Shown: positions 4,758-7,896 of the stretch, one piece after another
Layout: each line of letters begins with the position of its first letter
How positions within the stretch are numbered: the first letter of the stretch is position 1
Assembly: GCA_017512095.1 (NCBI GenBank)
Contig: JAFWHC010000007.1
Span: 1-64,000, forward strand
DNA from: Candidatus Saccharimonadota bacterium
Lineage (GTDB): Bacteria > Patescibacteriota > Saccharimonadia > Saccharimonadales > Saccharimonadaceae
Direction of reading: 5' to 3'
DNA: 64,000 nucleotides
Made by a program: the position numbers and the translations under genes
Notes under the pieces: generated by a model
What the model was told of the DNA's origin: nothing
What the model saw: only the letters and a program-made list of their open reading frames with translations
Databases searched by the model: none

Positions 4758-4824
4758 AGAGGGATAGATTTGTTTGCGGGGGATTTTTTGTCCCCTAGTA
4801 CATTAGAGAAAAGAGGTGAGCAGA

Positions 4825-5073
4825 ATGCCGACAGTAGCGATTCACGAGGAAGCCTTTGGTCGAGTGTCCGACAACATCTACTTAGCGAGGTTGGCCATGG
4901 AGTGCGCCGATGAGCGCAAGAATCCTGACATGCTTTGCGGAATTATTCGCGTTCTGGTTGGACACGAGGCGGTTAGCTTGGTGGACATTAAGAAGCTGAG
5001 TCGTCCTGGTCTGAATTTCTTCCGCGAACAGTTTGTCAGAGCGACAACAATTAGTCTTCCGGTAGCAACTTAA
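4825..5073 (+). CDS. Small hypothetical protein, 82 aa
   Basis: No family is recognised. The product is predicted to be mostly helical and soluble, with MECADERKNPDMLCGIIRVLV in the first half and a KKLSRPGLNFFREQF segment in the second. The frame can be read from a GTG at 4816. However, the AGAGGTGA Shine-Dalgarno overlaps that codon and is properly spaced for the ATG at 4825, so I chose the ATG. It has its own promoter (TTGCAA-N17-TATAAT) and ends in a strong terminator, so it is a monocistronic real gene despite its size. Confidence 0.75.
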   Translation: MPTVAIHEEAFGRVSDNIYLARLAMECADERKNPDMLCGIIRVLVGHEAVSLVDIKKLSRPGLNFFREQFVRATTISLPVAT

Positions 5074-5694: not shown

Positions 5695-5719
5695 GAAAAC
5701 CCCGCCTAGAAAAGCGGGG
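5695..5719 (-). terminator. Terminator of the clpP-like gene, overlapping the rubrerythrin promoter
   Basis: CCCCGC (5700-5705) pairs with GCGGGG (5714-5719) and, on the minus strand, is followed by TTTTC. The next bases on the minus strand are TATGC-TATACT, the extended -10 of rubrerythrin, so termination and initiation signals overlap. Confidence 0.8.
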
Positions 5720-5725
5720 TGGGGG

Positions 5726-6418
5726 TTAGAGGAGGTCATCCATAGACGAGGCAATCTTGTCGGCAACGCCGAGGCGGATGGCGTCACTGGGCAGCATATA
5801 CCATTCGACGCGCAGGTGTTTGTCGTATTCTTCCTCGCTAATCTGGGTGCGACCGAGGACGTGAGCCTTGACGATTTCCTTTTCGTAGCGCTTGCTGAAC
5901 TCTGCAGTGTCGATGAACTTGCTGGAGCTGTTGATGCTACCGTTGAAGCCATCGTGAAGCAGGAACATGGCGCGCGGAAGGGTGAAGCGCTTGTGGCCGG
6001 CGATGTAAATCAGGAAGGCCATAGAGGCACAGGTGCCGACGTTGTAGGTGTAAATCGGGGTCTTAGAGAGCTGAATGGCATCGACCAGAGCGAAGCCTTC
6101 GTAGATGTCGCCTCCGGGGGAGTTGACGTAGAGCTTGATGGGCTTGCGGTTTTCGGTGGGGATGTTTTCGTCGTCGCGGTTATACTGGATGATGTGGTGG
6201 ACGATGTCGGTGACGAGCAAGGTCGTGGAATCGACCACGTCCACGTCGTCCATGCTGGCGACGCTGGTGTTGAACCAGAGCCGGCGCTCGGCGATGTCTT
6301 TATGGTGAAGATATTCGTCGATGGCAGTGTTGACTCGCGGTTCGGCGGCGGGCAAATCGAAATATCGAAGGTCGGGACGCTGGTGAACTACCTGGGCCGT
6401 AGGCTTCTTGGTTGCCAT
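5726..6418 (-). CDS. clpP: ClpP-like serine protease (S14 family)
   Basis: The product has 230 residues. The nucleophile elbow GTCASMAFL corresponds to the ClpP GxxASMG motif, and LLHDGFNG corresponds to the catalytic-His block. YVNSPGGDIYEGFALVDAI is the classical ClpP strand-helix segment. The third catalytic position (Asp in RDxF of typical ClpP) appears to be Glu in RVEWYML, and the motif is looser than in canonical ClpP. It may therefore be a divergent ClpP or ClpP-like paralogue. Two ATGs are possible. The one at 6418 has AGAGGAG at proper spacing, while the one at 6427 abuts the Shine-Dalgarno. The promoter contains a 10-bp C tract as part of its spacer. Confidence 0.85.
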   Translation of the reverse strand: MATKKPTAQVVHQRPDLRYFDLPAAEPRVNTAIDEYLHHKDIAERRLWFNTSVASMDDVDVVDSTTLLVTDIVHHIIQYNRDDENIPTENRKPIKLYVNSPGGDIYEGFALVDAIQLSKTPIYTYNVGTCASMAFLIYIAGHKRFTLPRAMFLLHDGFNGSINSSSKFIDTAEFSKRYEKEIVKAHVLGRTQISEEEYDKHLRVEWYMLPSDAIRLGVADKIASSMDDLL

Positions 6419-6476
6419 TTTTCTCATCTCCTCTCAATAGTGAAATGTGCAAGAATTGCCCCGAGGGGCACCTCTG

Positions 6477-6505
6477 ATTATACCCGGGGGGGGGGTAAAA
6501 TGCAA
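6477..6505 (-). promoter_or_regulatory. clpP-like promoter with a C10 homopolymer in its spacer
   Basis: On the minus strand the -35 TTGCAT (6500-6505) and -10 TATAAT (6477-6482) flank a spacer TTTA-C10-GGG of exactly 17 nt. The homopolymer (G10 on the plus strand, 6486-6495) makes up most of the spacer. Any gain or loss of a C would move the spacing away from the optimum. Polymeric C or G tracts in this position control Neisseria opc and porA by slippage. Confidence 0.75.
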
Positions 6506-6531: not shown

Positions 6532-6556
6532 AAAAAGCCCCGCGATGAAGCGGGGC
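6532..6556 (-). terminator. Terminator of the 6571 gene
   Basis: GCCCCGC (6537-6543) pairs with GCGGGGC (6550-6556). On the minus strand the stem is followed by TTTTTC. It is one of several near-identical GCCCCGC stem terminators in this window. Confidence 0.8.
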
Positions 6557-6570
6557 GGGGTAGAAAGGGG

Positions 6571-7896
6571 TTAGAGGTCTCTGAAGATATACGTATAGTC
6601 AAGTTCGGGTGGGCGCGAGGAAAGGTTGACGAGATTGTGGTAAGACAAGTTGACTTCGTAGAGCTTTTTGAAAGCGTGGAATTTTTCGCGGTAGCGGTCA
6701 AAGAATTCTTCAGTATCCTTGACGTAGGCTTCGGCGATGCCGCCCTCGGAGGGTGTGTTGAAGTCGTGCAAGTCGACTGAGTGCTGGTGGATGATGTGAC
6801 CGGACTGGAGCGAGTTGTCGGCGGGGTAGACGGAAAGCATGACGACTTCTTCGCCGAGGTTGGCGAGGCGGATAACGCGATCGAGCCTCAACGCAACGTT
6901 GACGTTAAATTCGGCGCAGATGTCTGCCAAGCCGTTTTTGATGAGACTTTCGACGAAGTCGATGCGTTTTTCGAGGTTTTGATAGAATTCGTGGTCGTTC
7001 CTAATGATGGCTTCAAGTTGAACTATGTTGTCGTGGTTGTAAAAGTAGCTGTGACCTTTGTAATAGACGGAGATGGGGTCGTCAAAGGGGCTGGCGGTGA
7101 CGATGTGACGGATGCGACAGATTTCTCGGAATTTTTCCGAGAGAGTGTCGAGCCGGTCGGCGTAGTCGACACGGTGAGCCTTTGACTCCTCTTCGGCAGC
7201 GGTGAGCGGGCGGACGTAGTGGGTTTCAGAAGCGTTGAAGTCAACGGCGTGGTGGAGTTTTTCCTGAAATAATTGAGCGAAGAGCGCTCTATCCTCGTCT
7301 GCCGAAGTCGGGTGGGAGATGACAAGTTCGTGATTGAGGTCGAGCCGACTGCCGATGGGCAGGACGGCGTAGAGCTGGAAATGCTTGTCCTCATGGCGAA
7401 AGAATTTGACGTTGGGGTCATCTTTTAGCCATTCGCAAATGCCGCTAGGCTCGTTGACCGACAACAAAACGTCACTAGCGTCTTTGGGCTCGGTGAGGAA
7501 AAAGATGCGTCCGAGCTGGTTGTCGTGGTAGTTGCCAAAGTGGAGTGAACCGTGCAACAGATCGGGAAAAATGAAGCGCGAGTCGAAACGCGCATCTTCG
7601 AGGTCGAAAAAGTAGTCGACGCTACCTTGTGGATGGACGTAGAACATGTCTTTGCTTTGTGCAAAAGTGAGGTTAGAGCCTTCTTCGCCATAATCGGGAT
7701 GAAAAAGGTAGTTGGCGTTCTCGAACCAGGCGCGGTTGCGATAAGCGAGACCGCAGATATTGCCGTTTACCTCGAGAAACTCGGCGAGGTTGGCATGGCG
7801 TTTTTGAGGCACGATGGGTGCTTTGGGCGGTTCGATGGAAGGTTCGCCGGAGCGGACAAGGAATTTTTCTTTAGGAAAGCGCGAGAGTCTTTTCAA
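6571..7896 (-). CDS. Hypothetical protein, 441 aa
   Basis: I recognise no family. The protein is long, soluble-looking and rich in aromatic residues, His and Asp, with no signal peptide or membrane helix. Blocks such as HYVRPLTAAEEESKAHRVD and RIDFVESLIKNGL suggest helical segments in the second half. The frame opens at an ATG at 7926. However, AAAGAGGTGA lies 5 nt before a TTG at 7896 that begins LKRLSRFPKEK, so I prefer the TTG start. A promoter (TTTACT-N17-TATAAA) sits inside the rpoC terminator, and a strong terminator follows. It is a single-gene unit. Confidence 0.8.
   Translation of the reverse strand: MKRLSRFPKEKFLVRSGEPSIEPPKAPIVPQKRHANLAEFLEVNGNICGLAYRNRAWFENANYLFHPDYGEEGSNLTFAQSKDMFYVHPQGSVDYFFDLEDARFDSRFIFPDLLHGSLHFGNYHDNQLGRIFFLTEPKDASDVLLSVNEPSGICEWLKDDPNVKFFRHEDKHFQLYAVLPIGSRLDLNHELVISHPTSADEDRALFAQLFQEKLHHAVDFNASETHYVRPLTAAEEESKAHRVDYADRLDTLSEKFREICRIRHIVTASPFDDPISVYYKGHSYFYNHDNIVQLEAIIRNDHEFYQNLEKRIDFVESLIKNGLADICAEFNVNVALRLDRVIRLANLGEEVVMLSVYPADNSLQSGHIIHQHSVDLHDFNTPSEGGIAEAYVKDTEEFFDRYREKFHAFKKLYEVNLSYHNLVNLSSRPPELDYTYIFRDL

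Follow-up and report, generated by a model that had tools for sequence, protein, structure and literature searches.

The promoter of a gene for a ClpP-like serine peptidase was found to carry a run of ten C's in its spacer. The gene lies in the window, a stretch of 64,000 nucleotides of contig JAFWHC010000007.1 from a Candidatus Saccharimonadota bacterium (assembly GCA_017512095.1). From sequence comparison, the run is best read as a transcriptional contingency locus of the poly-C type known from porA and opc of Neisseria. We give a probability of roughly 0.7 to the proposal that the C10 tract is a mutable spacer of a sigma-70-type promoter, in which slippage would switch the monocistronic peptidase gene up and down.

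As listed in Table 1, direct reading of the minus strand gave the order TTGCAT-TTTA-C10-GGG-TATAAT with a spacer of 17 nt, confirming the hexamers, spacing, tract and positions proposed in the initial annotation. The -35 is weak, because TTGCAT matches TTGACA at three of six positions, the TTG core alone, and for this reason a consensus promoter scan did not call the promoter. Near the inferred transcription start, the fold of the 5' end region was unexceptional (z -1.25) and no Rfam family accounted for the region, the two weak matches both falling below their gathering scores. The end of the upstream gene is at 6571. Since terminators bound the peptidase gene on both sides, the C10 promoter serves one gene. 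Elsewhere in the window, a small ORF at 4816-5073 has no Pfam match; a TATAAT-like sequence lies ahead of it and a hairpin terminator behind it.

Table 1. Features of the ClpP-like peptidase locus (window coordinates)
Feature	Position	Strand	Basis or remark
-35-like hexamer TTGCAT	6500..6505	-	TTG core only
Promoter spacer TTTACCCCCCCCCCGGG (TTTA-C10-GGG, 17 nt)	6483..6499	-	direct reading
C10 homopolymer, proposed slippage tract (G10 on plus strand)	6486..6495	-	direct reading and run counts
-10 hexamer TATAAT	6477..6482	-	direct reading
Short 5' hairpin TGCCCCTCGGGGCA	6457..6470	-	adjoins inferred transcription start
Terminator of upstream gene, between that gene and the C10 promoter	6537..6556	-	terminator prediction
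Shine-Dalgarno AGGAG	6428..6432	-	9 nt ahead of second ATG (direct reading)
ClpP-like serine peptidase gene, monocistronic	5726..6418	-	230 aa from second ATG
Terminator of ClpP-like gene	5699..5720	-	terminator prediction

The second ATG (6418) is the likely start of the peptidase gene; an earlier ATG at 6427, directly after the Shine-Dalgarno sequence, would yield a protein of 233 aa. The product belongs to the Pfam family CLP_protease (PF00574; 88.2 bits against a gathering score of 20.2) but falls outside canonical ClpP, scoring at best 75 bits against a cut-off of 249 among the NCBIfam ClpP equivalogs and 55.8 bits against 308.6 for TIGR00493. Alignment of 61 members of the ClpP-like family indicates that the Ser-His-acid triad of a ClpP-type serine peptidase is present. 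The Ser and His are invariant in all 61, as is the glycine of the SPGG motif, and the acid position is Glu in 56 and Asp in five. The housekeeping ClpP of the same genome (C6:74018-74422) is approximately 30% identical to the ClpP-like protein, and a search of a collection of genome contigs with the latter returned one distant ClpP only. The ClpP-like paralog was present in 66 of 174 same-genus genomes (E below 1e-25), whereas other families of the order gave matches only at the level of the housekeeping ClpP. By these comparisons the ClpP-like peptidase is divergent and restricted to the genus. It has no obvious signal peptide. A single-sequence structure prediction of the peptidase was discarded (pLDDT 42.7).

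The C10 run alone could be the product of chance, as a run of 10 occurred in 13 of 100 dinucleotide-shuffled windows; its context could not. Even so, the run is an outlier in the window, which contains 39 G/C runs of length 5 and four of length 6, none of lengths 7-9, and then this one of 10. Counted over the entire genome (624,889 bases), runs of at least 10 number two and runs of 9 likewise two, with three of 7 and none of 8. Because it over-predicts runs of medium length, a Markov estimate was set aside as proof of the run counts. Both runs of at least 10 sit inside promoter spacers of 17 nt. The second (C6:89695-89704; L094:2696-2705) is a G run that overlaps the -35 of the promoter TTGCGG-G8-TGCTTAGAT-TATAAT, and the gene behind it encodes a surface protein of 1,134 aa with Fib_succ_major (FISUMP) and Listeria-Bacteroides repeats. 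The two C9 runs lie in frame within one glycan cluster (L093:4013-4021 and 5930-5938), in genes for a rhamnosyl-transferase-like protein (Rhamno_transf) and an undecaprenyl-phosphate sugar transferase (Bac_transf). Slips of -1 and +1 would shorten the Bac_transf product from 244 aa to 73 and 68 aa, and the Rhamno_transf product from 292 aa to 174 and 142 aa. In Neisseria, Haemophilus and Campylobacter, contingency genes typically encode surface proteins and glycan transferases.

These counts bear on the alternative that survives best, although we consider it improbable, namely that the tract is neutral. In a genome without mismatch repair, G/C runs would grow and persist in intergenic DNA, so that the position of a run in a spacer would be incidental and any differences in expression unselected. 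The absence of MutS described below would allow this, but the genome's runs do not form a falling series, with four of 9-10 above none of 8, and the coding runs sit in glycan-transferase genes.

The upstream regions of the ClpP-like family speak on both sides of this question. When promoters were sought as TTGNNN to TANNNT with the spacer left free, 50 of 65 upstream regions had a spacer of 17 nt. It was on the promoters of this family that the remark in the initial annotation about a nearly universal 17-nt spacer in the window was checked. A run of at least 9 within 160 nt upstream was present in four family members, from the window and from genomes G159, G001 and G026. The promoter of the G159 ortholog reads TTGCAA-AATCCGC-G10-TATAAT and its spacer is also exactly 17 nt, while the G001 and G026 orthologs each have a G9 placed in the 5'UTR and not in the spacer. 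An effect of the 5'UTR tracts would differ from that of spacer tracts. No such tract was present in 59 of the 63 orthologs having usable upstream sequence, and the switch is therefore not a conserved property of the ClpP-like gene. That most orthologs do without a tract, and that two of the tracts lie outside the spacer, is what neutral runs might leave behind. Against this, tracts recur on the ClpP-like family: three cases were counted, the window being omitted because it was picked for its tract, where 0.012 would be expected with tracts anywhere and 0.12 if every tract were restricted to one tenth of the genome (P 2e-7 to 2e-4). The G9 of G026 is the sole run of 9 or more in that genome. 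The tree of the ClpP-like family requires at least three changes (gains or losses) of the tract. Since the window and G159 sequences cluster on this tree, on long branches, they may share an ancestral CC-GGG spacer of which different halves were expanded.

Runs of at least 9 numbered 353 and were spread over 96 of the 174 same-genus genomes. The pattern GGGGGGGTATAAT (G7-TATAAT; seven or more G's directly before TATAAT) had 32 matches in these 174 genomes and 0 in the reversed control, a contrast that argues against neutral growth of runs; among 295 sampled genomes of the order, six from outside the genus also had the pattern. The pattern C8-N(1-10)-TATAAT, with 15 matches against 10 in the reversed control, was weak by itself, and only the orthologous set among its matches was used. 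This set comprises seven of the 15 (L191, L193-L198), all representing one promoter before an ABC exporter ATPase, in which the C-tract is retained across seven species at lengths of 9, 9, 10, 11, 11, 11 and 15. Such retention likewise argues against neutrality. Two paralogous surface-protein promoters in G028 (L131 and L149) carry tracts of G15 and G10 and agree at 57 of 60 upstream bases. Further homologous promoter pairs have G8/G9, G11/G9 (two pairs) and G8/G7, all these lengths coming from draft assemblies in which they may be wrong by one base or more. For the L124/L126 pair, the likeness consists of the TTGACA box, the leader and the gene. Spacers of G-tract promoters with a good -35 ranged from 14 to 20 nt and were 17 nt in only 3 of 22, compared to 48 of 61 tract-free ClpP-like promoters (P 1e-7).

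Three single loci were also recorded. In G001 (L091:2013-2031), a G19 stands directly before TAGAAT, far beyond a workable spacer, and is possibly an OFF state. In G004 (L098:2079-2088), a G10 lies just past a start codon with a signal-peptide-like sequence in another frame, which resembles a translationally phase-variable gene in the OFF state. In G073 (L140:105-638), a G9-TATAAT promoter precedes a DUF1706 (DinB-like) gene, another target that is not a surface structure.

The retained poly-C of the ABC ATPase promoter, together with the spacers of exactly 17 nt in the window and in G159, could also belong to a fixed structural element, in which the G/C run sets the twist of the spacer or binds a regulator and there is no length switch. 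We regard this as distinctly less probable than a neutral tract, for the run is C in some promoters and G in others, its distance to the -10 is not constant, and its length is unequal between homologous promoters. Least probable of all is an artefact of assembly, with a true length other than 10 or a run that is the consensus of mixed reads: the length of C10 comes from one genome sequence of the species, a draft assembly of 8 contigs, and homopolymers are prone to error, but some run must be real, the pattern across the genus carries its own control at 0, and mixed reads would in fact favor a switch.

A slippage-driven switch, as we propose it, agrees with the repair genes of the genus. MutS was found in none of the 15 genus genomes searched and was detected in 11 of 14 control genomes. 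This absence is compatible with reversibility at high frequency; together with varying spacers and length differences between homologous promoters, it makes up the pattern that should be expected of slippage-prone tracts. The placement of the organism in Saccharibacteria is indicated through the same-genus genome G026 by phylum-specific 16S primer sites, using Saccharibacteria (TM7) primer sequences taken from PMC6073563. The G026 16S contains exact sites for TM7-910R, TM7-1177R and Sac1218R, with mismatches to TM7580F (1), TM7314F (2) and Sac1031F (4); the genome to which the window belongs yielded no TM7314F site.

The proposed mechanism is as follows. Replication slippage would alter the length of the C10 tract and would probably go uncorrected, because MutS is missing. 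A spacer of 16 or 18 nt, or further from 17, would lower transcription, and a return slip to ten C's would restore it. Cells of one population would thus show heritable and reversible differences in ClpP-like peptidase level, while the level of the housekeeping ClpP would stay constant, and OFF cells should be viable because the latter is unaffected. It is plausible that C10, with its 17-nt spacer, is the ON or high state, since tract-free relatives use 17 nt. We infer the length variation at this locus, its effect on transcription and any benefit, and the idea of slippage-driven promoter switching put forward in the initial annotation is well supported by the comparative evidence. The company that the proposed ClpP-like switch keeps with switches of surface structures suggests that the peptidase might help in contacting the host or in adapting the envelope.

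Host-adapted pathogens offer the classic examples of phase variation through G/C runs. A broader proposal, which we hold with slightly less than even confidence, is that this MutS-less genus uses G/C-run contingency loci, many of them promoter-spacer switches, with the genus-restricted ClpP-like peptidase as a repeated target, so that proteolysis and not only surface structures would vary between sister cells. If this is true, these ultrasmall episymbionts would bet-hedge at the promoter level, a point relevant to the way they deal with host bacteria that change or are resistant, and through a switchable ClpP-like peptidase contingency control would reach beyond surface parts to proteolysis. 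The proposed switch lends itself to direct testing, since cocultures with the host exist for several Saccharibacteria. A literature search, thin on subscription journals, turned up incidental co-mentions of phase variation and Saccharibacteria but no description of the former in the latter. A study of S. epidermidis couples ClpP and homopolymers loosely, its clpP changes being missense (PMC10620731).

In Neisseria, porA, fetA and opc have a homopolymer between the -10 and -35 and are subject to promoter-spacer phase variation (PMC2791445), a description that agrees with the tract position cited for porA and opc when the C10 promoter was first noticed. The C10 promoter shares with them the feature of the porA/opc class, a G or C homopolymer between the -35 and -10, with spacer length as the proposed control and slippage as the proposed cause. 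It differs in its organism, a member of the Saccharibacteria, and in its target, a ClpP-like peptidase and not an outer-membrane protein. The further suggestion, that it would be new for a protease to be switched in this way, was incorrect as worded, because the coding sequence of the Neisseria meningitidis protease NalP already contains a poly-C tract that makes it phase variable (PMC3723659). Both are proteases under a poly-C tract; however, a coding-sequence frameshift switches NalP, which is a surface autotransporter, whereas the C10 tract lies in a promoter and the product is a ClpP-fold peptidase lacking an obvious signal peptide. With the housekeeping ClpP (peptidase family S14, ATP-dependent Clp protease proteolytic subunit) the protein shares the CLP_protease domain, the Ser and His of the triad and the SPGG glycine, but it is set apart by its low identity, by the predominance of Glu at the acid position and by scores far under the NCBIfam ClpP cut-offs. 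Novelty may lie in the control of a cytoplasmic ClpP-like peptidase by a promoter-spacer switch, and in the occurrence of such switches in Saccharibacteria; the mechanism is a known one, and it is the phylum and the target that appear new.
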